Shown here one piece after another: positions 11,188-32,637 of a DNA stretch of 34,125 bases. This DNA comes from Planctomycetia bacterium (lineage in GTDB: Bacteria; Planctomycetota; Phycisphaerae; Phycisphaerales; SM1A02), in contig SXSS01000103.1 of the NCBI GenBank assembly GCA_005792145.1, forward strand, positions 1-34,125, read 5' to 3'. Below the pieces are notes generated by a model. That model was not told the DNA's origin and did no database searches. It worked only from the letters and a program-made list of their open reading frames with translations. The translations under genes and the position numbers were made by a program. How positions within the stretch are numbered: position 1 is the first letter of the stretch; each line of letters starts with the position of its first letter.

Positions 11188-11254
11188 ATGTACGGCGATA
11201 CGAACGCATTTGCACTAATCGAACGAGCGAGTGCGTGATAGGCTTCTCAAAGCA

Positions 11255-12388: not shown

Positions 12389-12423
12389 CAGAAGGCAGTG
12401 GAAGGCGCGAACGCCACGATATG

Positions 12424-12972
12424 TCACTTTGCGTTTCTGCTTTTCAAGATTTCGTTGTTGCGTGGCAGAATCAATTTCAGTTTGCACGCTCGCAGAATTC
12501 GGCGTGGGCTGTCATTGCCTTTCGAAAACGCTTCAAGAAAATTCTGTTGCGCACGAGGTTCCCAAAGTGCGATCATTGGTTCAATTTCATTTTCTCGTTC
12601 GTTGAAGAATGCGATTGCTTCAATATCTGATTGGCGTGCGTCGACCAAAGATTGAATATCTGCAGATTCAAGCAGTGGATAATCGCAACCAACAACCAAC
12701 CACGCACATTGACCTGAAGCGGAGAAGGCCGCATGCAAGCCACTTGCAGGTCCGTGTCCGTCGATGAGATCGACCAACCCAAAATCGCCAAGTTGCCAGT
12801 GCGTTTTTTGCTCCGGCGTGCACGACCAATAGACTTTGGCGCAAAACGGGCGCAAAAGATCAGCAACTTCTTGCCACTGAGGATGAGTTGAATATGTGAT
12901 TTGGGCTTTGTCTTTGCCCATTCGCGAACTTTTGCCGCCGGTCAGAATCAATCCGCAAATTTCAGCGGTCAC
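12424..12972 (-). CDS. mobA: Molybdenum cofactor guanylyltransferase-like NTP transferase
   Basis: GLILTGGKSSRMGKDKA, LIDGHGPASGLHAAF, WLVVGCDYPLL; GTG start at 12972 overlaps the upstream stop. Confidence 0.88.
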   Translation of the reverse strand: MTAEICGLILTGGKSSRMGKDKAQITYSTHPQWQEVADLLRPFCAKVYWSCTPEQKTHWQLGDFGLVDLIDGHGPASGLHAAFSASGQCAWLVVGCDYPLLESADIQSLVDARQSDIEAIAFFNERENEIEPMIALWEPRAQQNFLEAFSKGNDSPRRILRACKLKLILPRNNEILKSRNAK

Positions 12973-15262: not shown

Positions 15263-16203
15263 TGCGAACAAACTTTCTGCGTCGATGGCGCAGTCTTGAT
15301 CTGTGGAGAATTCACTCGCCACTCTCCGTGGTAGATATTGAATCGACCATCGCGCACGAATCCGACAAGCGTGATGTTGAATCGCTTTGCAAGTTCGACA
15401 GCGAGGCTTGATGGCGCACCAACCGCGACAATCATTGGGATGCCAGCAACAAGTGCTTTTTGAACGAGTTCGAAACTCGCTCGACCGCTCAAGAAGAGAA
15501 GGCAATTCGAAAGCGGCGTCTTGCCTGAATTGAATTGAGCGCCAAGAAGTTTATCGACGGCGTTATGCCTGCCAACATCTTCGCGAACTTCCAGCAATTC
15601 GCCCTTTGCTGTGAAGAGCGCCGCGCCGTGCAGGCCGCCTGTCTGATCGAAAACTGATTGGTGCGCCCGAACCTGTCCCTGCAGGGCGGAAATTTCCGTC
15701 GCCGCGATTTGGAAACCTTCGCTGGCGATTTGTCGCAGCCCTGGAACTTCGAGCGCATCCAGAGATGCCTTGCCGCAGACTCCGCAACTTGATGTGGAAT
15801 AGAAGTGCCGCTCCAACTTTGGCCAATTCACGCTGGCATTTGGAGCCAATCGCACCTTCACGGTGTTGGGAGTTTGTCCCGCGCCAGTCTTTGGTCCGCA
15901 TCCAATGATTTCGATGACATCAGATGGAGATCGCAAAATTCCTTCTGTGAATAAAAAACCTGCCGCCAATTCCTCGTCGTGACCAGGCGTGCGCATGGTG
16001 ATCGAAACACTTTTGCTTTTCTTTTCTTCGCCTTCAAAAAACTCCACTCGGATTTCCAGCGGCTCTTCGATCGCCAAACGATCTGCCAAGGGTTGCGTTC
16101 CAGCATCAGAAACTCGCGTCACTTGCATCTCGACACTCTTCGCTATCACCGATGCGGTTGTCTTGGCAGAAAAGACAGGCAATTTCGCATTGGGCGTTTG
16201 CAT
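15259..16203 (-). CDS. fdhD: Formate dehydrogenase accessory sulfurtransferase FdhD
   Basis: RTPGHDEELAAGFLFTEGI, SSCGVCGKASLDAL, GRHNAVDKLLGA, SGRASFELVQKA. Confidence 0.95.
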   Translation of the reverse strand: MQTPNAKLPVFSAKTTASVIAKSVEMQVTRVSDAGTQPLADRLAIEEPLEIRVEFFEGEEKKSKSVSITMRTPGHDEELAAGFLFTEGILRSPSDVIEIIGCGPKTGAGQTPNTVKVRLAPNASVNWPKLERHFYSTSSCGVCGKASLDALEVPGLRQIASEGFQIAATEISALQGQVRAHQSVFDQTGGLHGAALFTAKGELLEVREDVGRHNAVDKLLGAQFNSGKTPLSNCLLFLSGRASFELVQKALVAGIPMIVAVGAPSSLAVELAKRFNITLVGFVRDGRFNIYHGEWRVNSPQIKTAPSTQKVCSQ

Positions 16204-16240
16204 CTTGATAATCCTAACGGAGACGGCCAGACAGAGATGG

Positions 16241-16645
16241 TCAGGAATAGACCGGTGACTTCCAAATTGGGACATCGCATTTCATTCGGTTGATGAACTC
16301 ATCGGTTGCGGCAAGCGCTTCTTTACGGTGTGCCGATTGGACTGACAATCGAAATGACCGCTCGCCCACCAAGACTTGACCACAACTATGTTCAACTATG
16401 ATCGTGGTCAGTCCATACTTGGCGAGAATATCTTGCGCCAAACCAGCGAGTGTCCGAGATGCCATTGGTTCGTACGCTTCATACTCGAGCGCTCGAATGT
16501 GGCGTGCGCCTTCGAGTGCGCGGACAACTCCTTCGAAGACGAGTGTCGCGCCGATGTTCGTCGCAGCCTGGTCGAGAGAGTTCTGCGCGGCACAATTTGT
16601 TGCATCTTGCAATGGACCATCGACAATATGGATTGCAACGCTCAT
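16241..16645 (-). CDS. moaE: Molybdopterin synthase catalytic subunit MoaE
   Basis: GATLVFEGVVRALEGARHIRALEYEAYEPMA, HRKEALAATDEFINRMKCDVPIWKSP; start MSVAIHIV overlaps the moaD stop. Confidence 0.92.
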   Translation of the reverse strand: MSVAIHIVDGPLQDATNCAAQNSLDQAATNIGATLVFEGVVRALEGARHIRALEYEAYEPMASRTLAGLAQDILAKYGLTTIIVEHSCGQVLVGERSFRLSVQSAHRKEALAATDEFINRMKCDVPIWKSPVYS

Positions 16646-16887
16646 CCTCCACCTACAAGTTCTATGAGCGCAACTTCGTCGCTTGCTTTGATGGGCGAGT
16701 CTGGCGAAGTAAACGCGTGATTGACTGCAAGCCTTGCGGCTTGAAAGAATTGCGATTTCGCAGGAAATTCCGCCGCCAAAGCAAGATTTACATCGCGAAC
16801 TTGCGCAGGCGACTGAACATCCACAGCAATTTCCTTGCACGATAACTCCCGCGCAAGTTCTCCGAAAATCAGTACACGAACTTTCAC
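16642..16887 (-). CDS. moaD: Molybdopterin synthase sulfur carrier subunit MoaD
   Basis: MKVRVLIFGELAREL start, NHAF, DEVALIELVGGG with C-terminal GG; adjacent to moaE. Confidence 0.88.
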   Translation of the reverse strand: MKVRVLIFGELARELSCKEIAVDVQSPAQVRDVNLALAAEFPAKSQFFQAARLAVNHAFTSPDSPIKASDEVALIELVGGG

Positions 16888-17013
16888 ATTTGAAGTGTAA
16901 CAGTGTGGCTTCGCAGAAACTTTACTTCATCCGATCTGCTTGCTGCGATGCGTATCATCGAGCTGCGTATTTCCACTCAATCTCCCCTCCCGAATCAATC
17001 ACTCGCACTCTCA

Positions 17014-18297
17014 ATGACAACGCAAACTCCACATTCAGTTCTTTGCGAGATTTCATCGCCACAAGCGGCAATCGATGCGGTCTGCGCACGCGTCATCTCT
17101 GTGCCAACGGAAACCATCGCACTTGCAAACTCCTGTGGCCGCGTGCTGGCGAAAACACTTTTTGCCGACCGCGATAGCCCCGCGCTCGATTTGAGTTCGA
17201 TGGATGGATTTGCCATAAAAATTTCTGACCTCGCCATCATCTCAAGCGCAACAGGGTTGCCAGTCGCAACGACTTCAACACAGGGGGATCATGAGGCGCG
17301 AATCGGTCACTCCCCTATTGAAATGCCCGTCGCACATGCCGTCCGTATTGTGACCGGCGCGCCGATTCCTCTTGGATCGGACGCTGTTGTTCGTCATGAA
17401 GATGTATCGCGAGTTGGAGATCGCGTGCGATTGGCGATTGATCCCGCTTCGATCAAGAATGGCGCGAACATTCGACGACAGGGAGAGAACGCGAAGAGTG
17501 GCGCGCAAATCGCGCCAGCAGGCTTGATGATTTCTGCCGCAACAATTGGAGCTCTTGCTTCATTTGGCGTTTCGCAAATTCAAGTGCATCGACGAGTGCG
17601 GGTTGCAATCGTGATCACAGGCGACGAACTTGTCTCCATCGACGGCAATGTGCAACCGTGGCAAGTTCGTGACAGCAACGGACCCGTGCTTCAGGCACTG
17701 CTCGGTACGCGAGCGTGGATAGAAATTATTTCTTGCGCCCGTGCAGTTGACGATGTGGATTCATTGACCGCGACTCTTGCGCTAGCGATGAAATCTTCTG
17801 ACGCAGTGATCTTGACTGGCGGTGTGTCGATGGGACACCGCGACTTTGTTCCTCAAGTTGTGGGAAAACTTGGCGCAGAAACTATTTTTCACAAATTACC
17901 CCAGCGTCCAGGTCGTCCAATGATGGCGGCAGTACGACCCGCAACTGCATCGAATGCTCCTTGCCTGATACTTGGCCTTCCCGGAAATCCAATTTCTGTG
18001 ATGACCACTGCTCGCCGACTTGGCATTCCAATGTTGGGTGCAATTGCAGGATTATCGCGGCTCGCTCTTGCACCTGCCAAACGCGTTCTTGCCAGCGACG
18101 ATCATTCCACGCTTGGGATGTGGTGGTTTCGACTTGTCGGCGAGCGTCTTGGCGCTGATTGTTGTAGCGAGCTGTATTTGCTCGGGGGAAAAAGTTCTGG
18201 CGATGTCGCGACTGCCGCAACAAGCGTGGGCTTTGTCGAAATCGCGCCAGGCAAATCAACCAATGGCACTCAAGACTTTTATGCTTGGGCTGAGTGA
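17014..18297 (+). CDS. moeA: Molybdopterin molybdotransferase MoeA
   Basis: SPALDLSSMDGFAIK, VRIVTGAPIPLGSDAVVRHED, TGGVSMGHRDFV, LGLPGNPIS; start MTTQTPHSV. Confidence 0.94.
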   Translation: MTTQTPHSVLCEISSPQAAIDAVCARVISVPTETIALANSCGRVLAKTLFADRDSPALDLSSMDGFAIKISDLAIISSATGLPVATTSTQGDHEARIGHSPIEMPVAHAVRIVTGAPIPLGSDAVVRHEDVSRVGDRVRLAIDPASIKNGANIRRQGENAKSGAQIAPAGLMISAATIGALASFGVSQIQVHRRVRVAIVITGDELVSIDGNVQPWQVRDSNGPVLQALLGTRAWIEIISCARAVDDVDSLTATLALAMKSSDAVILTGGVSMGHRDFVPQVVGKLGAETIFHKLPQRPGRPMMAAVRPATASNAPCLILGLPGNPISVMTTARRLGIPMLGAIAGLSRLALAPAKRVLASDDHSTLGMWWFRLVGERLGADCCSELYLLGGKSSGDVATAATSVGFVEIAPGKSTNGTQDFYAWAE

Positions 18298-18334
18298 AAA
18301 CATCTCAAACAGACTGACATAGATTGGACACGCA

Positions 18335-18892
18335 ATGGCAAAGAAGAAATCCCCCTCGAAAAAAACTTCCCAGATCGGCAAGGGCGCTGCGCGCTTGACG
18401 CATATCGACGCGAAGGGCCGCGCCGCGATGGTGGATGTTGGTGCGAAGGAAGTCACATCTCGTCGCGCAGTTGCGGAAGCGCGAGTGAATATTTCCGCGG
18501 AACTCGCCAAACGCATCGCACAGAATTCGATCTCGAAGGGAAATGTTCTTGATGTTGCACGACTCGCTGGCATTCAAGCCGCGAAGCGAACCGACGAGCT
18601 CATTCCACTTTGTCATTCGTTGCCACTTGATTCGATCAATGTTTGCGTCGAACTTCGCCGCGGCCATGTGTATGTCTGGGCCGAAGCGAAAGTGACCGCG
18701 AAGACTGGCGTCGAAATGGAAGCGCTGCTTGCTGTTGCCGTCGCAGCGTTGACGGTGATTGATATGGGAAAATCCATTGATCGTTCGATGACCATCGAAG
18801 GAATGCGCATGCTTGAAAAGGAAGGCGGGCGAAGTGGGCATTTTCGCGCGGTCACAGCAGCAAAGCCTTCACGAAAGCGAGTCGGGATATGA
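18335..18892 (+). CDS. moaC: Cyclic pyranopterin monophosphate synthase MoaC
   Basis: MVDVGAKEVTSRRAVAEA, GNVLDVARLAGIQAAKRTDELIPLCHSLPLDS, GVEMEALLAVAVAALTVIDMGK. Confidence 0.96.
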   Translation: MAKKKSPSKKTSQIGKGAARLTHIDAKGRAAMVDVGAKEVTSRRAVAEARVNISAELAKRIAQNSISKGNVLDVARLAGIQAAKRTDELIPLCHSLPLDSINVCVELRRGHVYVWAEAKVTAKTGVEMEALLAVAVAALTVIDMGKSIDRSMTIEGMRMLEKEGGRSGHFRAVTAAKPSRKRVGI

Positions 18893-19467
18893 CTGACGCT
18901 ATCCGTGCCGTCATATTGACTGTCAGCGATCGTTGCTCTCGTGGCGATGCTGTCGACACATCGGGACCAACGCTGGCATCACTTGCAATCAAACACTTGC
19001 GCGCCGAAATCGTTCACACGGATTGCTTACCCGACGATCTTTCCTCCCTTGCCAAGTTTTTTGTCAATTGGTCACAACCTGCGCATTCAGTTGACCTGAT
19101 ACTGAGTACAGGTGGCACTGGCTTGGCACCGCGCGACATCACTCCCGAAGCCCTTCGTACTGTGATGCACCGCGAACATGCTGGCTTGATGGATCTTTCG
19201 CGATTGCGCTGCTTGCAGAAGACGCCACGGACTTTTCTTTCGCGCGGAATTGCTGCGACAATTCACCAAACTCTTGTCATTACGCTTCCAGGCTCTCCAC
19301 GAGGTTGCAGCGAGATGTTCGAAGCAATCGCGGACATTCTTCCACACGCGATTGAAACTCTTCGCGGCGATGTCAAAGATGATGGTCGTCCAGAGTTGGA
19401 TGCAACTTCGCAAGATGGTTCAGGTTCGGGTTCAGGATTGGGGCGAGTCATCCATCACAAGGATTGA
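18889..19467 (+). CDS. mogA: Molybdopterin adenylyltransferase-type protein (MogA/MoaB)
   Basis: AVILTVSDRCSRGDAVDTSGP, LILSTGGTGLAPRDITPEA, ITLPGSPRGCSEMFEAI; ATGA overlap with moaC. Confidence 0.92.
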   Translation: MTDAIRAVILTVSDRCSRGDAVDTSGPTLASLAIKHLRAEIVHTDCLPDDLSSLAKFFVNWSQPAHSVDLILSTGGTGLAPRDITPEALRTVMHREHAGLMDLSRLRCLQKTPRTFLSRGIAATIHQTLVITLPGSPRGCSEMFEAIADILPHAIETLRGDVKDDGRPELDATSQDGSGSGSGLGRVIHHKD

Positions 19468-19512: not shown

Positions 19513-20424
19513 TCACTTCGCGGACACAAACTGAAACTCGATCTGCTTCGCAAAGCGTGAGTGCCACCATGTCTGAATGTGTGCGGGCTTCTTCGCGGGC
19601 AATTCAACAATTCGCGCTGGCATCATCACTGGCAGTGGATCAACATCGAATGGATATGGATCGAGTTCAATTCTTCGATCACCTCGCGGCGTCACCGTGA
19701 TTGTGCAGCGATCCGACCAACTTCCGCGCGGAACCTCGTGGAGTTCATACGGATCTTCACCAAGACCGTTCGAAGCTCCAGACTTCGCAGGGATCAGCGC
19801 AGAACAAAGCGCAAGCGAAATGCCATCACACAACTGAATAAGTCTTTGCAGTGGGGCGAGACTTGCGGGCTCGATCCAGGATGCCCCTTCAGGATCTGCG
19901 CGGAGTTCTGCGATCCAACCAAGTTGCATCTTCTTGCACTCCGCCATAAAAGCAAGTGGCGCCTCATTACTTCCAGCATAAAGTTTTTCAGGCGCGCCCT
20001 TCCAGAAGAGAGGATGATTGAATGCAGGTTCTGGATTTTGTATTGCACGCGCGGCATAGAGCCAATATGCATGAGAACTGATGAGAAGATTTACCATCGG
20101 GCGGTTCTGAAATCTTGTAAGTGCACTTCGCCATCGATCCATTCCTGCTTGCTGACTCTGCAATACCTCGCCAAGTCCTGCAGAAAATCCATCTGCTACA
20201 GAAACATCTGGAATCGCTTCCCACTCCCACCAACCATTGTCATGCTCAGCGATAGCAAGAATTGCTTCTGCACGCAGTCGCTCTGGATCTTTGACTGACG
20301 CCGAAAAATATCCCGGACAAGCGAAGAGTCTATTGCCCCAATGCGCCGCGATATATCCAGCGATCTGACTGTGATCAGGCTGGGTGACCATCCAAATTTT
20401 TCCATCTTGAATTGTCTTGAGCAT
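19513..20424 (-). CDS. DUF3891-family protein
   Basis: QPDHSQIAGYIAAHWGN, ILAIAEHDNGWWEWE, LISSHAYWLY, QLCDGISLALC; last gene of the xdh-containing minus-strand run. Confidence 0.75.
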   Translation of the reverse strand: MLKTIQDGKIWMVTQPDHSQIAGYIAAHWGNRLFACPGYFSASVKDPERLRAEAILAIAEHDNGWWEWEAIPDVSVADGFSAGLGEVLQSQQAGMDRWRSALTRFQNRPMVNLLISSHAYWLYAARAIQNPEPAFNHPLFWKGAPEKLYAGSNEAPLAFMAECKKMQLGWIAELRADPEGASWIEPASLAPLQRLIQLCDGISLALCSALIPAKSGASNGLGEDPYELHEVPRGSWSDRCTITVTPRGDRRIELDPYPFDVDPLPVMMPARIVELPAKKPAHIQTWWHSRFAKQIEFQFVSAK

Positions 20425-20451
20425 TGACAGCCTCGTCCAGTGTGGGTCATA

Positions 20452-21306
20452 TCACACAACGCATTTTCTGATCACGTCGCGTTCCTGCAGGAGTTGCGCA
20501 GCGATGCTCACTGCAATTTCTGGCGGGGAATTTGATCCAATTGGCAGACCGATCGGGCAGTGAATCCGACCAACCATCGCCTCATCAAATCCCTCTTTGA
20601 GAAGCGTGCTTCGCAGCGTTCGCGACTTTGGCTCACTGCCGATGACACCGATGAATGCGGCATCACCTCGTCGAAGAATTTCGCGCACAATCGGCAGGTC
20701 GGTTGCGTGACCTTGCGACATACAAAGATAAAATGTTCCTGCAGGCAACTTCGAAACAAACTCCGCTGGTTCTGCAACAAGCATCTTTCGCAAATTAGGC
20801 TGCGAGATAATTTTCGTCAGCCATTCCTCGCGTGGATCAATGCAGGTCAAACTGCAATCAAATGTGCATAGAAGCGAAACCGTCGCTTGCGCGACATGAC
20901 CCGCACCGAAGAGGGCGATGTTCCAGTTTGTCAGCGCAGAAATTTCATAAAACAAAGTTGCGGCACCGCCACAAACCATATTCAAGTCGCGAAGAAGTTC
21001 GTATCGAACAATTTCTGATTGAATCGCAGCAGCAGGAATTGCTCCTTGAACTTGGCGTGCAATCATCGCTTGCGAATGGGTGATTGCGCGCGCTTCCAGA
21101 CGACCTCCGCCGACAGTTCCCCATACCACTCCAGCTGCGGTGATGATTGCTTTTGCCCCAATGTCTTGCGGAACATGACCTTCAGGCTCGACAAGTGTGA
21201 CGGTGACAAAGACAACTCCTCGCTCTGCAAGCGCGCTTGCACGCTGGAGATATTCGCGCATCGAGCAACTCATCGTGTTCGATCCTTTTTCATGCGCCAC
21301 TTCCAT
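20452..21306 (-). CDS. xdhC: XdhC-type xanthine dehydrogenase accessory protein
   Basis: GSNTMSCSMREYLQRASALAERG, GTVGGGRLEARAI, WNIALFGAGHVAQATVSLL, FIGVIGSEPKSRTLRSTLL, HCPIGLPIGSNSPPEIAVSIAAQLL; start at 21306 or 21273. Confidence 0.92.
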   Translation of the reverse strand: MEVAHEKGSNTMSCSMREYLQRASALAERGVVFVTVTLVEPEGHVPQDIGAKAIITAAGVVWGTVGGGRLEARAITHSQAMIARQVQGAIPAAAIQSEIVRYELLRDLNMVCGGAATLFYEISALTNWNIALFGAGHVAQATVSLLCTFDCSLTCIDPREEWLTKIISQPNLRKMLVAEPAEFVSKLPAGTFYLCMSQGHATDLPIVREILRRGDAAFIGVIGSEPKSRTLRSTLLKEGFDEAMVGRIHCPIGLPIGSNSPPEIAVSIAAQLLQERDVIRKCVV

Positions 21307-23773
21307 TTGTATCTTGCTTATCCCAGATGACGAATGCCTCTGGAGAAAGACCACGCAAGACTCGCTCTGCCGTTGCGGGAATTGCCAGTGGCACAAGTTG
21401 CGATTCGCCTGCGACAGAATTCTTCCGCGCAGACATAACTGCGTCGCGAATCGCGGTCCACACAGAAATCGACAGGAGAAGCGGAGGTTCGCCAGAAGCT
21501 TTCGATCCTCGGATGTTCTGTGTATTGTCCTCGTTGAAAATCAAATCAGCATTGAACACGCGCGGAGTGTCTTGCACATTTGGAATCTTGTATGTGCTTG
21601 GTGAATGCGAAATCAACTTCCCGTTGTTGTCATAAACAAGGTTCTCAGTTGTGAGCCATCCCATTCCCTGAATGAATCCCCCCATCACTTGCCCCATATC
21701 AAGCGCATGATTGACTGGTCGCCCCAGATCCATCAATATGTCAACGCGGCGCACTTTCACTTCGCCAGTATCGGAGTCCAGTTCGACTTCACTTGCTGCG
21801 ACGCCTTGGGTGAAATACAAAAACGCCTTGCCCTTGCCATCCACTTTGTTAAAGCCCAGATTTGGAGTTGAGTAATAGCCATAGTCGCTGACTGAAATCC
21901 GATTGCGGTATGCCTCACGAATCAATTGCGCCAAAGCAATTGTAAAAACAGCACCTGAAGGATCTGTCACCGTGACATTCGAACCAACAAATTTCACGCG
22001 ATGTTCAGATGTGCCACTTGGACCGACAGTCTCGTCAACAATAATCTCTGGCATCGTGCCCAGCCCCGCGGTCTTGCTCGCCCACAATTCTGCGGGAATT
22101 GATCGAAGCTGAATCGCCAGCGAAGCGAGTCGACTGCAAATTGATTCACACGCATTCAAGGCCGCAGCGCCATTGATATCCGTTCCTGTCGATGCGGCGG
22201 TCGGCGATGTATTTGCATTTTTTTCAGTTGAAGTCGGCATAATCCGCACGCATGCCAGCGGCAATCCAAGTTGTTGCGCGACAATTGTTGCGATGCGCGA
22301 ATTGACTCCCTGCCCCATCTCAACAGCGCCGGTCGAGACTTGCGCCGTTCCATCGCGGTGAAGATTTACAAGTGCGTTTCCTTGATTGAGAAAACGCGTG
22401 GTGAAGGAAATGCCAAACTTGACCGCGGTCAATGAAAGACCGCGCACAAATCTGTTGTTGCCACTCGTGCAATCAGCGTTCCATGCGATGATTCCCTCAC
22501 GGCGTTTTCGGTACTCGCAGCGTTTCTCCAACGATGCGAAAAGCGAAGGCAAATGATTGCCCTCGACGCGTTGACCATAATGAGTGATGTCCTGATTTTG
22601 GTTATAGCAATTGAGCAAACGCACATCGAGCGCATCACGACCAACAATTCGAGCGATATCTTCGATGATTGACTCGATCATCGCGACACCCTTGGGACCT
22701 CCAAAGCCTCGGAACGCGGTGTGTGGGTGAAAGTTTGTGCGACACACTTGACCCCGAACGCGCATATTGGCGATCGAATATGCGTTATCGCAGTGCAAGA
22801 GAGCGCGCTCCATGATCGCAGTTGAAAGATCGGCATACGCGCCTCCATCAGAGTGCAACATTGCGTCAAGCGCGAGAATCTTTCCTTTGCCATCGAAACC
22901 ACAACGATATTCAATTTGAAATGGATTTCGCTTTCCAGTGATGATCATGTCATCGTCCTTCGAAAGCGCCAAGCGTGCAGGTCGACCGCTGCGCTTGGCG
23001 ATCAGCGCCGCGTATGCGGCGATCGGCGAAGCCTGCGACTCTTTACCGCCGAATGCGCCGCCGAGACGCTTTGCGATGCAGACCACATCGCTGTAGCGAA
23101 GTCCGCACGCTTCGGCAACAACGTGCTGCGTTTCGGTGGGATGTTGAGTCGAAGAGTGCACTTCGAATTGTCCATCCTCCTTTGGATAGACAACAACCGC
23201 TTGACTCTCAAGATAGAAATGGTCCGCACCGCCGATTTCAAGCGTGCCAGAAATCTGGTGAGGCGCGCTGGCAAGAGCGCTCTGCACATCTCCAGTTGAA
23301 ATAGTGCGCATCGAACCAATAAAACTCTTCGCCGTGATTGCCTGTGAAATCGTGCGGATATCCGGCAATTTTCCCCACTCGACGACGATAGCTGCCAAAC
23401 CCTTTGCGAGCGCTTCCTTGGTTTCTGCGCCGATCACGGCGACTACCTCGCCAACATAATGAACCTCATCCGCTGCGATGATTGGCTGATCTTGAAAAAT
23501 GCTCCCCCACATATTGTGCGCGACATCCTTTCCCGTGACGGCGCAGATGACACCAGGAATTTTCAGCGCGGGCGCAGTATCGAGGCGAACAACACGAGCA
23601 TGTGCATATGGGCTATAGACCAACCCACAGTGCAGTTCGCCTTTGAGCATCGGCCGATCATCAACATATTCTGATTTTCCTGTGACATGCGTAATCGAAG
23701 AGTCATGCGGTGGAGAACCGTGATCGCTGATCAGGGTCGACATTGGAACAGGCGTTCGTGTTTGATCAGCCAT
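21290..23773 (-). CDS. xdhB: Xanthine dehydrogenase molybdopterin-binding subunit
   Basis: VTGKSEYVDD, KRLGGAFGGKESQ, TAFRGFGGPKG, GAVEMGQGVNSRIA, KASGEPPLLL (catalytic Glu region). Confidence 0.94.
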   Translation of the reverse strand: MADQTRTPVPMSTLISDHGSPPHDSSITHVTGKSEYVDDRPMLKGELHCGLVYSPYAHARVVRLDTAPALKIPGVICAVTGKDVAHNMWGSIFQDQPIIAADEVHYVGEVVAVIGAETKEALAKGLAAIVVEWGKLPDIRTISQAITAKSFIGSMRTISTGDVQSALASAPHQISGTLEIGGADHFYLESQAVVVYPKEDGQFEVHSSTQHPTETQHVVAEACGLRYSDVVCIAKRLGGAFGGKESQASPIAAYAALIAKRSGRPARLALSKDDDMIITGKRNPFQIEYRCGFDGKGKILALDAMLHSDGGAYADLSTAIMERALLHCDNAYSIANMRVRGQVCRTNFHPHTAFRGFGGPKGVAMIESIIEDIARIVGRDALDVRLLNCYNQNQDITHYGQRVEGNHLPSLFASLEKRCEYRKRREGIIAWNADCTSGNNRFVRGLSLTAVKFGISFTTRFLNQGNALVNLHRDGTAQVSTGAVEMGQGVNSRIATIVAQQLGLPLACVRIMPTSTEKNANTSPTAASTGTDINGAAALNACESICSRLASLAIQLRSIPAELWASKTAGLGTMPEIIVDETVGPSGTSEHRVKFVGSNVTVTDPSGAVFTIALAQLIREAYRNRISVSDYGYYSTPNLGFNKVDGKGKAFLYFTQGVAASEVELDSDTGEVKVRRVDILMDLGRPVNHALDMGQVMGGFIQGMGWLTTENLVYDNNGKLISHSPSTYKIPNVQDTPRVFNADLIFNEDNTQNIRGSKASGEPPLLLSISVWTAIRDAVMSARKNSVAGESQLVPLAIPATAERVLRGLSPEAFVIWDKQDTNGSGA

Positions 23774-25250
23774 GAAGAACCTCGTTGCCAAATCTGCGAA
23801 AGAGATTTGCGGCTGCCACTCTGCGATAGGACGCGCTACCACGAACATCAGAAATCGGCTTGATAGAACCCGCGATCAACAGGGCAACTGATTCGATTCG
23901 GGCTTGATTCAATTCGCCGCAGAGCGCAAGCTCGACTTCTGGCATACGAACTGGTGTCGCAGCAACACCTCCGTATGCGATTCGTGCGCTGACAACATTT
24001 GGCGCAGCTTTTCCTTTGCCGCCTGCTCCTCTGCGTCCTTTCAAAGTGAGCGAAAATGCGCCGCTGACTGCGCTGATATCAAGATCTTTCCGCTGCGTGA
24101 CTTTGCACAGACTCATCACATCATTTGCCCCCGTGCGATCGAAGCTGATGTGGGTGATGATTTCCCCAGGCTCGAGCGAAAGCTTTTTATAGCCGACATA
24201 CAAATCGGTCATCGGGATTTTTCTCTTGCGAACCACGCCCTTCGCACCTTGCCTGCTTGCAACATGAACTTCTCCCCCAGCAATCAGAAGAAATGGCAGC
24301 GTGTCGCCAATGGGAGATGCGTTGGCGATGTTGCCCACAAGCGTCGCCACATTCTTGATCTGCGGGGATGCGAAAAGATTCAGGAATCGCGCAAACTCTG
24401 GCGCGACATCTTCGCTGACTCGCCGCACTTCGGCAAGGGTGACGCGCGATCCAAATGTGACGCCACTACGCGTCAACTTTGTTTCATACAGTTCGGGGAT
24501 CAAGTGAAGACTTATGAGTGAAGTCGGCAGAGGCTTACCCTTGTTCACATGCACACCGATATCAGTCGCGGCACCAAGCACCCGCGTCCCAGGATTGATC
24601 GAGGTAAATGTCACCGCCTCTCGCAAGGAAACAGGGGCGAAAAGTTTCGTGCCTTCATACTCGACCAACATTGACAACTTCGTCGAAGCAACAGAATCTT
24701 TGATTGATTGTGGATCGGAGTATCGACGGGCGACCGAATGCGTTTCGGTTGCCCGCACAGTGAGCGCCGCTTCAATAATCGGTGCATATCCAGTGCATCG
24801 GCAGAGATTTCCCGTGAGATAATTGGATGCTGTGCGTGCATCTGCTTGATCGTGGCGCTCCAACATTGCGCTCATCGCCATCACGAATCCTGGAGTGCAA
24901 TAACCGCACTGAGAAGCGTGGCATCTACGCATCGCTTCCTGTGCCGGTGACAAATGATCGCCGCACTGCATCCCTTCCACTGTGACGATGTGCGTTCCAT
25001 CCATTTGTGCGACGGTGGCGATACAGGAATTCATCGCCTCGAAACTCAATTGGGAGATTGGCTGCGCGCTTGGTTGACACGAAGATCGAAGCACGGTGCA
25101 TGCGCCGCAGTCGCCTTCGGCACAAACGATTTTTGTCCCACTCAGTCCAGCCTCTTTACGCAACCATTCCGCAAGCATCATCAATGCTTCCCGACCACGA
25201 ATCTCTCGGCGCACGCCATTCAGATGGATTAGTGCGAAGTCACGCATCAT
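23766..25250 (-). CDS. xdhA: Xanthine dehydrogenase small subunit ([2Fe-2S] plus FAD domains)
   Basis: CAEGDCGACTVL and CGYCTPGFVMAMSAM..NLCRCTGYAPIIEA ferredoxin motifs, then FAD-domain segment LVGNIANASPIGDTLPFLL. Confidence 0.94.
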   Translation of the reverse strand: MMRDFALIHLNGVRREIRGREALMMLAEWLRKEAGLSGTKIVCAEGDCGACTVLRSSCQPSAQPISQLSFEAMNSCIATVAQMDGTHIVTVEGMQCGDHLSPAQEAMRRCHASQCGYCTPGFVMAMSAMLERHDQADARTASNYLTGNLCRCTGYAPIIEAALTVRATETHSVARRYSDPQSIKDSVASTKLSMLVEYEGTKLFAPVSLREAVTFTSINPGTRVLGAATDIGVHVNKGKPLPTSLISLHLIPELYETKLTRSGVTFGSRVTLAEVRRVSEDVAPEFARFLNLFASPQIKNVATLVGNIANASPIGDTLPFLLIAGGEVHVASRQGAKGVVRKRKIPMTDLYVGYKKLSLEPGEIITHISFDRTGANDVMSLCKVTQRKDLDISAVSGAFSLTLKGRRGAGGKGKAAPNVVSARIAYGGVAATPVRMPEVELALCGELNQARIESVALLIAGSIKPISDVRGSASYRRVAAANLFRRFGNEVLHG

Positions 25251-25287
25251 GGCGATCGTAGCACCACGCCGTTGCAACGCACCAAAA

Positions 25288-28200
25288 TCATCCCGCGGAA
25301 AAAACTCGAACACGATTCATCCCACCATCTGGGAAAACTGTCACTCGAACTTGATCGCATGGCTCAGCGCTCTCGACGGCAAATGCGACAGCGCTTCCTG
25401 CGAACGCCTTGACATTCGTTCGTGCCACAAGTGCGATCCACTTGCCAGCGCACAATCCATCGACCGAAATCTCCTGCGGATTATTATTCACAAATCGTTT
25501 GAAATCCACGACAATTCGCTTGATCTTCGCTTTGCGACCAAGTGCGATCACCACATTTTCGCTGTGTCCCGCCACACGGCTTCGCGCAGATTCCAGACCG
25601 TCGACCATGTTCAGCGGCGGATAGGGCGAGATGACTTGTGTCGCAGGCGAATAGTGTTCGTTGGAAGCAGAGATCACTCGGCCACCGAACGCTGCGCTTG
25701 CAATATCCACTTCGCTGCCTTTATGCCTTTCAAAGTTGGCGGAGATCTCTGCCTCAGTCGCGACATACTTTGGTGTCATCGGCTTGCGAGTCTGCGAGTC
25801 AAATTCTGGGTGCTGTCGAATAGCCGGCGAAAAAAGATTTGCTTTTTCTTGAGCTGGTAATTCGACTCCATAAAGCGCCAACCGTGTCAGCCCTCCGTCT
25901 GGATACATACGCACTCGAATGCGGCGAAACTTTCCGTCGCCAGAAACGGAATGAGCGGCATGCAAAGAGTGACCATACAACTGCATCCGTGGCACGATTG
26001 TCTGCCAGCGACCCTGAATCGAATTCCATCCTTCGACCTCGAATCCTTCGGCATGATTTCCAAGATGGAATTGAGTCGAAATCACAACGCAATCTATCGC
26101 CGCTTCAGAAACCATCTCGAAGATCATCCAATCGCAACTTGCCGAATTGTGACGAACGGTTTCCCAGCTATCCATAATCTTGCCTTGTCTGCCAAAGAGT
26201 GCTGGATCGAAAACAGGAAGATTCTGCGAAAGCAAGTTTTCTGCTCGTGCGAAACGCTGATTTGAAGCAGACTCCACCCGCGCGCCAACAACAAGATTGA
26301 AATCGGCGAGAGGATCTCGCGGACCACGATCAAAGATTTCTTCAGGGAGATCCTCTTCAAATGCAGAGAAAACAAGTTCCCGATATCCCACATTCACCCT
26401 TTGTACTTGCTCAGCGCCTTCGAGCGCCCTCGCGCTTGATCTAGAAAGTTCAGTTTGAAAGCGCGAGCAATCAACGCCACGAATTGCCAGATGCCGCAAG
26501 ATAATCTGCGCAGCTTGCGAGATGAAGCGCATCCCCGCTTCTTCGCCATTGCAAAGAACGACAAATCCTTTGCCAGCATCGGGACCAGTGTGGCATTGAA
26601 TAAAAATCGAGCGGAAGCCATCATTTGATCCTTGATGGATCGACAATCGATTGGGCCCTGCTTCCGCGACAAAGATGCCAAGGCCCATCATGCATCCCAT
26701 AAAATCGCGAGCACCCTTATCGAACCCATGCAACATTCGCATCGCAGTCTCGTGCGAAATCGGCCCGCATCCACCAAGATCCTGTGCAGCGTGCGTAAGC
26801 GCGGAAAGAAATCGCAGGACATCGGCGGCGGTTGCCACCGCTCCAGCAGCAAGCGCTGGGAAAATCTTGCGTGTTCCTTCGACAGCCGAACCAGAATCCA
26901 GAAAACCACTCGCACACTCTCTGTCTGCGAGCGCAGATTCCTCGAACGAACATGAATTCATTCCAAGCTTGCGCAGAAACACAGCCATCAATGTATTGAT
27001 TGGTGCCCTTTCGATGCTCTGGATCAAATGCTGAAGCACCATAAATCCTCCGCCTGAATATTGAAACTTCGTCCCAGGCGCATTGATCGCCCTGATCGGC
27101 TTATATCCATATCGCGCGTTGCCTTCGAGCAATTCCTCAATCGGCGGCATCGCTTCATTCGCGGGGATGCCGTTGACATAGTGCGTGTTCATCGCTTGAT
27201 GCGAAATCAGATGAGCGATCGTCACTTGATCAGCCCACTCTGGATGATTCGCATCGTGTGATCGAATCCGAAAAGTCGAAGCGCTCTTGGCGAAAAGCGT
27301 ATTGACCTGCGTATGGAGCGGCGTTTGGGCTGCACGAAAATATTCCATCGCGAAGCAAGCCGCAATACTCTTGCTGAGTGATGCGATCTCGAAAAGAGTT
27401 TGGCCAGTCACAGGATGCAACGCATCTCGATTGCCGAATTGCAATTCTTGAATGTGCTTGCCATCTTCAGTCATACTGATCGAAGCACCGTGCACACCGT
27501 GTTTCGCAAGCGCCTCGGCAAGTTCCTGCTGAACAGTATCAATCGGCTGAGACTCCAACCGATTTTTGGTGATCTGCCAAAGTGCTTTGCGTGCGTTTTC
27601 GATTTCTTCGCTCTGAGTATGATTCAATCGCTCTTTCAGCGCGCCAAGAAGTTCCACTTCCGATCGCCCCTTTGCCGCGATCAAGAACTTGAAACCAAAT
27701 CGCTCTCGATAAGTCCGACCAAGGGAGAGAAGTTCTTCCCCCTGACCAACCTTGCCCGCAGATTTCTGAAACACGTCTGATTGCTCCTGTGCAGCAGTCG
27801 CATCGAGCGAACGCGCAGATTCCCCAATATCACCATGAAAACCTGCCGCTTCGTTGATCTCATCAAGCGTAAAACTTCCAACCAACTCTTGCGCCACGCG
27901 CAGATTGACCACAGAGTCGCGCGACATCTGCGCCGCGAATCTCTGGCTTGCACATACAGAAAAGAATGCGTGCAATCGAGCAACTCGCATTGGAATTTGA
28001 TACTTCCTCGGCTCGATCGATTGCGCAACAGCCCAAGGATCATCGTGGCGGCGAATGGTCTCGAGCGTAAATGGCAACATCAACTCGGTTGCAAATTCAA
28101 CTGGTGTATCGCTTGCCATCAACTGCAGCATGATGTTCATTGCGACGGGATACCACTTGCGGGTGCGATCATCCCACTTCACTTGCACGATCTTGCTGCC

Positions 28201-30096
28201 ACTCGAAAGATTCTTACGAATGAAATGTAATTCTTCGTGTGCGATGCGCACGAAATCTTCATAGTTGAATCGCCCATAATGCAGTTCGTGCCAGACTTCC
28301 CAGCGTGATCTCTCCGCCGTCGCCAAATCATCCATCACCCGCACTGGCACGCCATCAATGGTCGCGGGAAGTGCGACGCATCCATTTCCGCAGAGCCAGT
28401 CAGTCAGATATTGCAGCGACTGAAAAATGTTGTAACGAATCTCATCAGGGTGGTTGTTGGCGACCGTTGCAGATTCCCGTCCATCCGCAACCAGAATCGA
28501 CCGCGCATACAAAGGATCGTCTCGATCAAGCCCACGCACATCTTGCCCTTGGATGAAATCCAAGACTTCGCGTTGATGATCAGGTGCCAACAAAGCACAC
28601 ACCAAATCATCGAGCGGTGCGGATTCGCCATTTTTCGTGCGCTTCCATCCTTCAACAAGCGCAAGTCCAAGCCTGACAAAATCTGGATGAGCGACCCAAA
28701 ATCCATCAAGATTCCGCTTCATCTGCGTGATCACATCTTTGATGAATCCTTTGATCGCAACTTGGAACGAAGCACTCCGCATATCACCATCTGATGGAAG
28801 CACTCCATACATTCCCCCCACCTTGATGCCTCCGCGCGAACCAACAACCTCCGCAAGCAAGTCATGCGACGCCTTGATGTTGTTGATGACTATGTTCGGA
28901 TCAGCCTTGACTGGAATTCGATAGTTGCCATCATTCTTCATCAAGCGCGCGGTTGATGCGAGAAAATCGTGCCAGCCAAGCGATGCGCCTGCAAAGTATG
29001 GATGCAACTCATCCATAATCTCATTCATACGGAAGACTGCGCGCGGATTTTCTAGAACGATCATCACTCGAATCGTGCCAATCCTGTACCGCGGGTGCCG
29101 AGCGCAAATCATTCGCTCTGCGTTTTCCATCATGATGCGGATGTACGCCGCCTCTTCTTGTGTCTCCAACTTTGGAACATAAAACACAAGCGCCTGAGGA
29201 TTATTCCAATTCGCAAAGAGATGAAGCGCAAAGTCATACAAATGCAAAGGCAACGGGTTGTCGCCCAGGAAAAGAAATGGACAAGGCATCGCAAGACCCG
29301 GAAATCGCTTGATTGGCAGCGAAAGTTGCGATGACGCCAATCGATATTCCTTTCCAGTGCGCCCATCCACATATGTGATGGTCCCCTGCAAGCAGCCAGT
29401 CAGATTTTCCCCCGCCAAGATCAGGTCGCTGCGCAAAGGTGTCTTGGAATCTTCATCGTCTGCTCCCCACTTTGCGCTTGCGCTGAAGTCCTTCAGCAAC
29501 TCCGCAACAATCGCTGGCTCGCCATCAAGCTTGCGATGAAATGCATTCATTGCATTGATCGAAAGCTTCGCGTCATCCGGTGGACCAAAGAGGGTGACAT
29601 GCTCTCCACGCAAAAACTCAGGAACCAAAGCAATGGGCTGACCGCCGCCCGAGCGACAAAAGAATTCGCTCAGCGGACCAATGACCACTCTCCCCTGAGC
29701 GTCTTCTTGACCAATGACTGTGCGATAGTCGGGATCGCTATAAGCAACCTTCAGCGAAGAGTTCAGCTCGAAGCACGCTTGCGTTCGCTCGTCGATGAAT
29801 GCTCGGTCGACGACTCGTTGTTGCAACACTTGCCGCAAGTGCGTTTTCACAGATTCATAAAGTTCGCAAAGAAACTGCAGAGATTCTGGGTTTTCCAATC
29901 CCCCGCTCGCGCCAATCTGCCACATATTCGCCACGCCATCAACTGGCTTGCGCTGATCGGCAAGATGCATCAACAATTCATGTGAAATAAAATCTCGGTA
30001 TGTTGGAATCTCCGCGCCATCCATAACTCCACGTCCGATCATCGAAGCACGATACCCATGCCGCACAACTTGTCGCAGCGTTGACCCGCACGACAT
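25288..30096 (-). CDS. Four-domain fusion: malate synthase - OHCU decarboxylase - beta-lactamase-type serine hydrolase - allantoicase (1602 aa)
   Basis: Single uninterrupted ORF; each domain supported by separate motifs (see domain entries). The start may be internal (ATG at 30042 or 30024). Confidence 0.9.
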   Translation of the reverse strand: MSCGSTLRQVVRHGYRASMIGRGVMDGAEIPTYRDFISHELLMHLADQRKPVDGVANMWQIGASGGLENPESLQFLCELYESVKTHLRQVLQQRVVDRAFIDERTQACFELNSSLKVAYSDPDYRTVIGQEDAQGRVVIGPLSEFFCRSGGGQPIALVPEFLRGEHVTLFGPPDDAKLSINAMNAFHRKLDGEPAIVAELLKDFSASAKWGADDEDSKTPLRSDLILAGENLTGCLQGTITYVDGRTGKEYRLASSQLSLPIKRFPGLAMPCPFLFLGDNPLPLHLYDFALHLFANWNNPQALVFYVPKLETQEEAAYIRIMMENAERMICARHPRYRIGTIRVMIVLENPRAVFRMNEIMDELHPYFAGASLGWHDFLASTARLMKNDGNYRIPVKADPNIVINNIKASHDLLAEVVGSRGGIKVGGMYGVLPSDGDMRSASFQVAIKGFIKDVITQMKRNLDGFWVAHPDFVRLGLALVEGWKRTKNGESAPLDDLVCALLAPDHQREVLDFIQGQDVRGLDRDDPLYARSILVADGRESATVANNHPDEIRYNIFQSLQYLTDWLCGNGCVALPATIDGVPVRVMDDLATAERSRWEVWHELHYGRFNYEDFVRIAHEELHFIRKNLSSGSKIVQVKWDDRTRKWYPVAMNIMLQLMASDTPVEFATELMLPFTLETIRRHDDPWAVAQSIEPRKYQIPMRVARLHAFFSVCASQRFAAQMSRDSVVNLRVAQELVGSFTLDEINEAAGFHGDIGESARSLDATAAQEQSDVFQKSAGKVGQGEELLSLGRTYRERFGFKFLIAAKGRSEVELLGALKERLNHTQSEEIENARKALWQITKNRLESQPIDTVQQELAEALAKHGVHGASISMTEDGKHIQELQFGNRDALHPVTGQTLFEIASLSKSIAACFAMEYFRAAQTPLHTQVNTLFAKSASTFRIRSHDANHPEWADQVTIAHLISHQAMNTHYVNGIPANEAMPPIEELLEGNARYGYKPIRAINAPGTKFQYSGGGFMVLQHLIQSIERAPINTLMAVFLRKLGMNSCSFEESALADRECASGFLDSGSAVEGTRKIFPALAAGAVATAADVLRFLSALTHAAQDLGGCGPISHETAMRMLHGFDKGARDFMGCMMGLGIFVAEAGPNRLSIHQGSNDGFRSIFIQCHTGPDAGKGFVVLCNGEEAGMRFISQAAQIILRHLAIRGVDCSRFQTELSRSSARALEGAEQVQRVNVGYRELVFSAFEEDLPEEIFDRGPRDPLADFNLVVGARVESASNQRFARAENLLSQNLPVFDPALFGRQGKIMDSWETVRHNSASCDWMIFEMVSEAAIDCVVISTQFHLGNHAEGFEVEGWNSIQGRWQTIVPRMQLYGHSLHAAHSVSGDGKFRRIRVRMYPDGGLTRLALYGVELPAQEKANLFSPAIRQHPEFDSQTRKPMTPKYVATEAEISANFERHKGSEVDIASAAFGGRVISASNEHYSPATQVISPYPPLNMVDGLESARSRVAGHSENVVIALGRKAKIKRIVVDFKRFVNNNPQEISVDGLCAGKWIALVARTNVKAFAGSAVAFAVESAEPCDQVRVTVFPDGGMNRVRVFSAG
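25291..26325 (-). other. Domain 4 of fusion: allantoicase, two repeats (about aa 1258-1602)
   Basis: ARVESASNQRFARAENLL..GKIMDSWETVRHN..CDWMIFEM..STQFHLGNHAEGFEVEGW and second repeat FGGRVISASNEHYSPATQVI..MVDGLESARSR..HSENVVIALG..VVDFKRFVNNNPQEISVDG; both end in a (Y/F)PDGGxxRxRxx-type strand. Confidence 0.88.
26482..27540 (-). other. Domain 3 of fusion: class C beta-lactamase-type serine hydrolase (about aa 853-1205)
   Basis: SLSK (Ser-x-x-Lys, aa 906-909), APGTKFQYSGGGFMVLQHLIQ (Tyr motif at aa 1013), IHQGSNDGFRS (HxG at aa 1154). Confidence 0.88.
27547..27984 (-). other. Domain 2 of fusion: OHCU decarboxylase (UraD-like, about aa 705-850)
   Basis: CASQRFAAQM, FHGDIGE (candidate catalytic His), AAQEQSDVF, YRERFGFKFLIAAKGRSEVELLGALKERLNHTQSEEIENARKALWQITKNRLES. 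Confidence 0.85.
27997..30096 (-). other. Domain 1 of fusion: malate synthase A-like (about aa 1-700)
   Basis: LSINAMNAF, WGADDEDSKTPLRSDLILAGENLTGCLQGTITYVD.RTGKEYRL, YVPKLETQEEAA, VMIVLENPRAVFRMNEIMDEL, DGFWVAHPDFV, VMDDLATAERSR (compare MEDAATAEISR of malate synthases). Confidence 0.88.
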
Positions 30097-30115
30097 TCTG
30101 ATTTATTCTGACTGT

Positions 30116-30466
30116 GTGACACCTCTCGCCATACTTGGACTTTCGACTCATGTCCTCAATACAGCAACTGGCGATCCTGCTGCGGATATGAAAGTGCGAT
30201 TCCAATCACTTGAAGGTGGCGCATGGTTCGATCGACACGAAACGCACACCGATGCTGACGGACGAGCGCAAGGATTTTCCAAGGGACCACTTGCCGCAGG
30301 AAATTTTCGACTCATCTTCGATGCGGGACCGTGGTTTACTCGGCGCGGCCAAGATTGTTTTTTCCCCCAAGTCACCATCGAGTTTCAAGTGACTGATCCC
30401 AAACGACACCATCATGTGCCTCTGCTGCTCAGCCCATTTGGATATTCAACCTATCGAGGCAGTTGA
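30116..30466 (+). CDS. uraH: 5-hydroxyisourate hydrolase (transthyretin-like)
   Basis: GTG start; LGLSTHVLNTATGDPAADM and C-terminal HHHVPLLLSPFGYSTYRGS. Confidence 0.95.
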   Translation: MTPLAILGLSTHVLNTATGDPAADMKVRFQSLEGGAWFDRHETHTDADGRAQGFSKGPLAAGNFRLIFDAGPWFTRRGQDCFFPQVTIEFQVTDPKRHHHVPLLLSPFGYSTYRGS

Positions 30467-30468
30467 AC

Positions 30469-31404
30469 ATGGCGATCATCCTTGGCGAAAATCGATATGG
30501 AAAAGCGGAAGTCAGAGTCTTTCGCGTCACGCGCAGTGGTGATACGCACGAAGTCCTCGACCTGAATGTGACTGTTTTATTGAGCGGCGATTTCACGGCA
30601 ACACACTTGACCGGCGATAACACGCAAGTGTTGACAACCGATGCAATGAAAAACACAGTCTTTGTTTTTTCCCACGAGTATGGCGCAATGGAACCCGAAG
30701 CATTTGGATTGTTGCTTGCAAGACATTTCGTCTCCACGCAATCGCATGTATCCAAAGCTGAAGTCCGTATCGAAAAATTTGATTGGGACCGGATTATTTC
30801 CAAAGGCAAGCCGCATCCGAGCGCGTTTCGCAAAAGTGGATCGATGACAAGAACGGCGACTGCGCTCGTCTGCCGAGATGGTGCGAAGACGCAAGATTTT
30901 ATTGTCGGTGGACTGAATGACTTGGTGATCTTGAAGACAAGCAAGAGCGAATTTCGCGGATTTCTGCGCGACAAATTTACAACACTTGCCGAAACCACCG
31001 ACCGAATCATGGCAACGGAAGTCTGCGCTCGTTGGAGGATTTCTGCTTCAGAATCATTGAGGCTTGACCACATCGACTGGGCAAAGAACTTTCTCAACAC
31101 GGTCGACACCATGCTGGGCGCATTCGCCGAACATCACAGCCATTCATTGCAGGAAACTCTTTTCTTGATGGGCGAGCGCGTTCTATCCAATCACCCTGAA
31201 ATTGCCGCCATTCGGCTCTCACTTCCAAACAAGCATCACTTTGCAGTTGACCTTTCGGCTTTCGAGCGCGAGAACCACAACGAAGTTTTCATCGCCGCAG
31301 ACAGGCCATATGGATTGATCGAGGCGGTAATCGAGCGCGATGATCCCAAGACATCATCGGCATCATCGGGGTCTGCTGTGGCGCACACTTGGCCAGCGTG
31401 GTAA
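30469..31404 (+). CDS. Urate oxidase (cofactor-independent uricase)
   Basis: GDNTQVLTTDAMKNTVFVFS, LPNKHHFAVDLSAFERENHNEVFIAADRPYGLIEAVIER; ATG at 30469 (the track uses TTG at 30463). Confidence 0.93.
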   Translation: MAIILGENRYGKAEVRVFRVTRSGDTHEVLDLNVTVLLSGDFTATHLTGDNTQVLTTDAMKNTVFVFSHEYGAMEPEAFGLLLARHFVSTQSHVSKAEVRIEKFDWDRIISKGKPHPSAFRKSGSMTRTATALVCRDGAKTQDFIVGGLNDLVILKTSKSEFRGFLRDKFTTLAETTDRIMATEVCARWRISASESLRLDHIDWAKNFLNTVDTMLGAFAEHHSHSLQETLFLMGERVLSNHPEIAAIRLSLPNKHHFAVDLSAFERENHNEVFIAADRPYGLIEAVIERDDPKTSSASSGSAVAHTWPAW

Positions 31405-31571: not shown

Positions 31572-32489
31572 TTACTCCAACACGCGAAGAGAAAGTCCGT
31601 GCGTTGCAAGCTGAGCCTTGATTTCGTCGAGGCTGGTCGAACCAAAGTTCTTCATCCCCATCAATTCGGCTTCCGTGCGACATGCGAGTTCTCCAAGCGT
31701 TCGCACTTCGAGCAACTGAACAGCCTTCTTCGCGCGGATCGTCAATTCGAGCGCGCTGATTGGCAGCTCCAACAATTCTGGTGCGACCTGCAAGCGCAAC
31801 TGATCCAAATATTCTCGGCGGTATGACTCTTCGAATCCACCTTCAAGACCTTGTCCCAAGCGCAGTCCGCGCGAATTGAGCATCGACTTGATCTCATTGA
31901 TGCTGGTTTCGCCAAAGTTCTTGAATGCCATCAGCTCCGCTTCGGTGACGCGCAAGAGATCTCCAAGCGTGCGAATTTCCACCTTTTTCAGGCAGTTTCG
32001 CGCGCGCGCTGAAAGTTCGAAGTCCGTGATCGGCGTATCGAGAATCGCATTGCGCCGCGCAGTTTGCTGTTCAGCATTCGGGTCATACGACATCGTCTTC
32101 ACAGCGCAGACATCTTTGACATACATGCGCGCATGACCATTGTTTGGATACAAAGTCAACACGCGTCGCAAGCATCGCTCCGCCCGTACGAGTTCTCCCA
32201 TGTCCTCATAAAGCACAGCAAGATTGATCATCGCATTGACTGGTGGGGTTGGGAGATAGCAGATCTCCTCGTACAAATCGATCGCCTCCTCGTCCTCTCC
32301 CATGCGATCGAGCAACTTTGCCAACGCGAAGAGCGTCGTGACCGAACGGTCAGACTCGAGAGCCTTCCTATATGCGGCAACCGCTTCATCTCGGCGACCT
32401 TCGTTCGCGTGGCGAACCGCTAGGTCGAAGTGTGGCTTGGCTGCTGTTGGATTCGCTGGATTGACATGCTTGATCGTTGCGTTACTCAT
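31572..32489 (-). CDS. TPR protein with two C-terminal RNA polymerase alpha-CTD-like domains
   Basis: TPR-like AVAAYRKALESD / EEAIDLYEEI / VRAERCLRRVLTLYP; two alpha-CTD cores: ISALELTIRAKKAVQLLEVRTLGELACRTEAELMGMKNFGSTSLDEIKAQL and ITDFELSARARNCLKKVEIRTLGDLLRVTEAELMAFKNFGETSINEIKSML. Confidence 0.88.
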   Translation of the reverse strand: MSNATIKHVNPANPTAAKPHFDLAVRHANEGRRDEAVAAYRKALESDRSVTTLFALAKLLDRMGEDEEAIDLYEEICYLPTPPVNAMINLAVLYEDMGELVRAERCLRRVLTLYPNNGHARMYVKDVCAVKTMSYDPNAEQQTARRNAILDTPITDFELSARARNCLKKVEIRTLGDLLRVTEAELMAFKNFGETSINEIKSMLNSRGLRLGQGLEGGFEESYRREYLDQLRLQVAPELLELPISALELTIRAKKAVQLLEVRTLGELACRTEAELMGMKNFGSTSLDEIKAQLATHGLSLRVLE

Positions 32490-32637
32490 TCGTATAAAAC
32501 CTCGTTGGGATAGAACTTGCGAAAACCTCTTTACCAAGAACCAAAATCTGCACCGCGCATTTTTGGGGGGGTCGAGAAGCATACCTCCAACCGCCCAAGT
32601 TCAACAAAGTTTTCCGAGACGCACAATTCGACCAAAT

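Follow-up and report, generated by a model that had tools for sequence, protein, structure and literature searches.

Which enzyme opens the hydantoin ring of allantoin in a purine-degradation locus that carries neither of the known allantoinases? The question is raised by a stretch of DNA of 34,125 nucleotides (the window) from a lake planctomycete, with a source genome of 2.5 Mb in 152 contigs. An initial annotation had read a xanthine-to-malate locus here, arranged as two divergent operons. The domains, the conserved active-site residues, and synteny in two phyla all support this prediction, and they point to a candidate for the ring-opening step.

The locus and its genes

Gene families at the locus were assigned by Pfam and NCBIfam profiles. 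Together with the ORF coordinates, these assignments bear out the order first proposed for the minus strand, fusion-xdhA-xdhB-xdhC-DUF3891 with overlaps or short gaps, as well as the placement of uraH and uricase on the plus strand, diverging from the start of the fusion. The genes are:

25288-30096, minus strand: fusion of malate synthase (MS), UraD, BL and allantoicase (Alc) domains, 1602 aa (ORF list and Pfam)
23766-25313, minus strand: xdhA-type small subunit with 2Fe-2S and FAD domains (Pfam/NCBIfam)
21290-23848, minus strand: xdhB-type molybdopterin-binding subunit (Pfam/NCBIfam)
20452-21396, minus strand: xdhC, xanthine dehydrogenase accessory protein (TIGR02964 above cut-off)
19513-20424, minus strand: DUF3891 protein, accessory (Pfam)
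30116-30466, plus strand: uraH, 5-hydroxyisourate hydrolase (TIGR02962 above cut-off)
30463-31404, plus strand: uricase, cofactor-free urate oxidase (TIGR03383 above cut-off)

As mechanical ORFs, the fusion, xdhA, xdhB, and xdhC overlap successively by 26, 83, and 107 nt, and a gap of 27 nt separates xdhC from DUF3891. With the likelier internal ATG starts, the xdhA-xdhB overlap shrinks to a few bases, and the remaining minus-strand gaps are about 16 to 40 nt. The uraH and uricase frames share 4 nt, and both start beside the 5' end of the fusion. Co-transcription is a prediction. Uricase scores 324 bits against the factor-independent urate oxidase model TIGR03383 (cut-off 168), UraH 120.5 bits against TIGR02962 (cut-off 87.5), and XdhC 174 bits against TIGR02964 (cut-off 161.6). 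xdhA (408 bits, TIGR02963) and xdhB (832 bits, TIGR02965) fall just under the equivalog cut-offs of 467 and 849.5, respectively; for both, the best family is xanthine dehydrogenase. No RNA elements or tRNAs were found in the window.

Other genes in the window include a Moco set (moaA, mobA, moeA, moaC, moaE, and a mog-like gene) together with fdhD and an FdhF/YdeP-type oxidoreductase gene, all at 9946-19467; the Moco set fits the presence of a molybdenum enzyme. Three relatives have fdhD and the gene for this oxidoreductase directly after the xdh genes. Adjoining the locus, a gene at 31572-32582 encodes TPR repeats and RNA polymerase alpha C-terminal domain(s) in one protein (TPR-alphaCTD), and it is conserved there also in the absence of the urate genes. 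Positions 4996-6063 encode a protein with an ATP:guanido phosphotransferase catalytic domain (McsB/arginine-kinase type).

The initial annotation listed DUF3891 at the end of the minus-strand series, but comparison shows that it does not belong to the core. Within the genus, a family search finds it in just 2 of 19 genomes, one of which lacks the fusion, and most fusions have either no copy or a remnant beside them. It was rejected as a missing pathway enzyme on the same grounds. A PDB sequence search with DUF3891 gave no match; its H..HD..H..D pattern resembles the metal sites of the HD superfamily, a putative likeness.

A four-domain fusion protein

In one open frame, the fusion joins a malate synthase-like domain, UraD (OHCU decarboxylase), a domain of the S12/class C beta-lactamase family (BL), and allantoicase. 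Its conserved part starts near residue 25, so the true start may be the ATG near 30024. The domains are:

28027..30024, minus strand: malate synthase-like domain, about residues 25-690 (Pfam TIM barrel 277-478, MS_C 551-670)
27547..28026, minus strand: UraD domain, residues 691-850 (Pfam match 727-848)
26452..27561, minus strand: BL domain, residues 846-1215 (Pfam match 856-1197)
25291..26394, minus strand: allantoicase domain, two repeats, residues 1235-1602 (Pfam match from 1271)

Statements about residue invariance refer to an alignment of 40 full fusions. The malate synthase domain shares a TIM barrel and a C-terminal domain with malate synthase A (AceB; 3cuz, 3cux). However, it is divergent, scoring 136 bits against the TIGR01344 equivalog (cut-off 594.5), and its N-terminal part is longer and matches no Pfam family. 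Residues E215, R264, E349, D377, D589, and D590 are invariant; of these putative active-site residues, R264, E349, D377, and D589/D590, which we take to be catalytic, align with 3cuz. The UraD domain passes PF09349 (71.5 bits, cut-off 24) and falls below the stricter TIGR03180 (63 bits versus 139); its active-site His and Glu-Gln (H754, E771, Q772) are invariant and align with OHCU decarboxylases in the PDB. Similarly, the two PF03561 repeats of the allantoicase domain score 177.5 bits against a cut-off of 27, and 198 bits against the stricter TIGR02961 (cut-off 278). This domain aligns with yeast allantoicase (1sg3), and several of its motif residues are invariant. The UraD-BL-Alc piece is predicted with confidence (pLDDT 91.5, pTM 0.90).

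The fusion is real. A frame of 1602 aa filled by four domains, in a window of 52% G+C and with stop-free full-length orthologues elsewhere, excludes chance. Fusions of adjacent purine-catabolic enzymes are known in general, for example of UraD with other pathway enzymes. No MS-UraD-BL-Alc protein of four domains turned up in a literature search of partial coverage, which also gave nothing relevant on DUF3891, on an allantoinase with a beta-lactamase or serine hydrolase, or on how Bdellovibrio or planctomycetes degrade purines.

Distribution and synteny of the fusion

Allantoicase is present in 33 of 400 genomes of the window's order. All 21 allantoicases of the window's family (four genera) lie within frames of 1337-1724 aa, some truncated by contig ends, and the same domain order, MS-UraD-BL-Alc, is found in all 21 genomes. 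The other 12, from a sister family of the same order, are unfused short frames. The BL-allantoicase part was scanned against a genome collection of 84,980 species, using two search patterns of which one (FMGCxMGLG) falls in BL; this yielded 53 loci in planctomycetes and Bdellovibrionota. About 30 of these belong to Bdellovibrionota (Bacteriovorax, Halobacteriovorax, Oligoflexus, Pseudobdellovibrio, and others), and many of the planctomycete carriers are lake MAGs by title. The domain order is identical in the two phyla, and a tree of the fusions splits them cleanly with full support. No stand-alone BL gene occurs among the confirmed scan loci; at two loci, L152 and L153, the end of the contig leaves just an allantoicase fragment. 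A frame of about 1553 aa in another genome of the order (G040, L028 6836-11494) was rejected as a related fusion, as it consists of malate synthase and isocitrate lyase. Most of the surveyed genomes are incomplete draft MAGs, so that single absences are weak and weight is placed on the repeated pattern.

The neighbors of the fusion differ between the phyla. Planctomycete fusions adjoin uraH and uricase and often xdhABC, followed at some loci by fdhD and the FdhF/YdeP oxidoreductase gene or by a cytidine-deaminase-family gene. In Bdellovibrionota, most fusions follow uraH and a urate oxidase of the PuuD type (PF06181), in the order PuuD-uraH-fusion. Uricase and PuuD are not homologous. Because two unrelated urate oxidases are thus joined to the same uraH-fusion pair, the fusion belongs firmly to urate breakdown. 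Clustering of the neighbors showed that only uraH is widespread in both phyla (15 planctomycete and 22 Bdellovibrionota loci), with xdh genes near the fusion at about 12 and 6 loci, respectively; across both phyla it revealed no conserved unknown gene that could serve as an alternative allantoinase candidate. In genus g41, the cytidine-deaminase-family gene by the fusion (L066 11057-11536, L068 8344-8853) is a possible guanine deaminase. This small gene was considered as AllA and rejected, since its product is a cytidine-deaminase-family protein, guanine-deaminase-like by eye.

The synteny comparison with relatives that the initial annotation called for found the gene order kept in related genomes. 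In one genome of the same genus (G008), synteny extends over the flanks, the Moco genes, DUF3891, and xdhABC, at identities of about 72-94%. What this genome lacks is exactly uricase, uraH, and the fusion, of which no remnant was detected; the pattern suggests gain or loss of these three genes as one unit. The cassette-free site (L162, G008 contig C62, 13361-15184) lies between xdhA and the TPR-alphaCTD gene and contains a multicopper-oxidase fragment; a longer multicopper oxidase is found beside uricase at another locus (L023).

Known allantoinases are missing from fusion genomes

AllB, the amidohydrolase allantoinase, exceeds the TIGR03178 cut-off in 14 of the 400 order genomes, 10 with an unfused allantoicase and 4 without allantoicase. 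Thus, AllB is found in 10 of 12 genomes with an unfused allantoicase versus 0 of 21 with a fused one (Fisher's exact p=7e-7, a descriptive figure rather than a clean test, as it ignores the kinship of the genomes). In the sister-family genomes where coordinates were compared, AllB adjoins allantoicase. Likewise, none of 25 Bdellovibrionota fusion genomes has AllB above the cut-off, and the fusion itself gives no match to TIGR03178 at E<=0.001. PuuE, the polysaccharide-deacetylase-like allantoinase, is above the TIGR03212 cut-off in none of 42 fusion genomes and in none of the 50 genomes searched. Weaker TIGR03178 matches, including a class at about 270 bits, were rejected as allantoinases, as those checked pass dihydropyrimidinase or dihydroorotase cut-offs. 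The absence of AllB alone does not imply BL, because one sister-family genome (G084, 94% complete; locus L082) has an unfused allantoicase yet lacks AllB; a class V aminotransferase gene adjoins its allantoicase.

The BL domain as a candidate allantoinase

BL carries the PF00144 S12 signature: S906-x-x-K909, Y1013-S-G, and H1154-x-G. Ser906, Lys909, Tyr1013, His1154, and Gly1156 are invariant in 40 of 40 fusions, as are H966, H972, Y973, N1158, and R1162, with much of the remaining domain variable. The AlphaFold2 model has the S12 fold (mean pLDDT 94), and Foldseek matches it to S12 structures with a probability of 1.00. The top PDB matches are IS11 esterase, R61 DD-peptidase, LACTB, AmpC, and D-amino acid amidase. 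BL thus shares fold, SxxK, Tyr, and HxG with this family. It differs from it in being at most 22% identical to any of these top matches and in being embedded in a pathway fusion with metabolic enzymes. It is also far under all class C models (42 bits against the class C beta-lactamase model NF033085, cut-off 415). Residing in one protein with malate synthase, BL would not be an exported cell-wall enzyme.

BL is the sole domain of the fusion without an assigned pathway step, and it sits between UraD, which makes allantoin, and allantoicase, which uses allantoate, where allantoinase belongs in the pathway. Against this argument from order, the order of domains in a fusion need not track the order of reactions, and malate synthase comes first here. 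Class C beta-lactamases open a four-membered cyclic amide by serine attack, forming an acyl-enzyme that is then hydrolyzed, and the reaction proposed for BL is likewise the opening of a cyclic amide ring. To our knowledge, no S12 enzyme is known to hydrolyze hydantoins. That reaction, hydrolytic opening of the allantoin ring, is also the one catalyzed by AllB. However, AllB is a metal-dependent TIM barrel and BL an unrelated serine hydrolase of the beta-lactamase fold. PuuE provides a precedent for a non-homologous allantoinase, although it has no sequence relation to BL. Because the known allantoinases are absent, the motifs are invariant, and the position is between UraD and allantoicase, we infer that BL is probably a third, non-homologous allantoinase, within a four-step enzyme that would feed malate synthase.

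Of the two steps left unassigned in the initial annotation, the opening of allantoin can therefore be given a strong candidate from within the fusion, while the conversion of ureidoglycolate to glyoxylate stays vacant: AllA (PF04115) is absent from all 50 genomes searched, fused and unfused alike.

Alternative roles for BL

This second vacancy is the basis of the likeliest alternative, that the substrate of BL is ureidoglycolate or some other product made by allantoicase, which BL physically adjoins, and that another enzyme opens allantoin. We consider this unlikely, though the least so of the alternatives. Sister-family genomes with AllB and an unfused allantoicase also lack AllA and have no fused BL, and the step seems to be accomplished there; moreover, where the sole TIGR03178 match is in the dihydroorotase score range, no candidate would be left for opening allantoin. 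Ureidoglycolate also decays spontaneously (PMC6320678). By this indirect argument, from unfused sister genomes that do without both AllA and fused BL, a role for BL in this step is less likely than spontaneous decay, an activity of allantoicase itself, or another enzyme. In three sister-family purine clusters (L082, L084, L085), DUF6986, related to HpcH/HpaI aldolases, takes the place that malate synthase has in the fusion, and it may be the glyoxylate-using enzyme there. Two of these (L082, L084) also carry adenine deaminase.

There is a smaller chance that the genome's dihydropyrimidinase or dihydroorotase opens allantoin promiscuously, with BL serving as esterase or amidase for some other metabolite. 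Dihydropyrimidinases are homologous to allantoinase, some fusion genomes carry ones that might act on allantoin, and the class at about 270 bits occurs in about half of the genus. However, it also occurs in members without the fusion, is not found beside the fusion, and is missing from three fusion genomes (G014, G192, G207). In these, and in many Bdellovibrionota, TIGR03178 matches are only in the dihydroorotase score range.

It is quite improbable that BL is a non-catalytic scaffold holding UraD and allantoicase: LACTB, a structural neighbor in the fold search, does form filaments (title of entry 7ulw), but every S12 catalytic residue and the five additional residues are invariant in an otherwise largely variable domain. 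Finally, an assembly or frame artefact can be dismissed, for although the window comes from a draft assembly, as one contig, and three loci (L123, L138, L147) have split frames, full-length stop-free fusions recur across two phyla, in dozens of assemblies made independently, and the breaks lie at differing positions, mostly within a domain and with no common linker, so that they look like assembly frameshifts.

The predicted pathway and its significance

The locus is best explained as an aerobic purine-degradation cluster around one four-domain enzyme, with BL as the probable allantoinase. XdhABC would convert (hypo)xanthine to urate, uricase would oxidize urate to 5-hydroxyisourate, and UraH would yield OHCU. 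Within the fusion, the UraD domain would produce (S)-allantoin, BL would open its hydantoin ring to give allantoate through a Ser906 acyl-enzyme, and the allantoicase domain would release urea and ureidoglycolate. Glyoxylate, formed from ureidoglycolate spontaneously or by an unassigned activity, would then be condensed with acetyl-CoA to malate by the malate synthase domain.

On balance, sequence and predicted structure favor an independently evolved serine-hydrolase allantoinase, carried in one OHCU-to-malate-synthase polypeptide that is common to Planctomycetota and Bdellovibrionota. OHCU is short-lived, and the fusion offers a compact four-domain enzyme for studying whether this intermediate may be channelled. 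If the assignment of BL is true, it adds a non-homologous allantoinase and brings hydantoin-ring hydrolysis, within central nitrogen metabolism, into the range of the beta-lactamase fold. It would also account for possible purine use by lake planctomycetes and Bdellovibrio-type bacteria despite a pathway that is annotated as broken.
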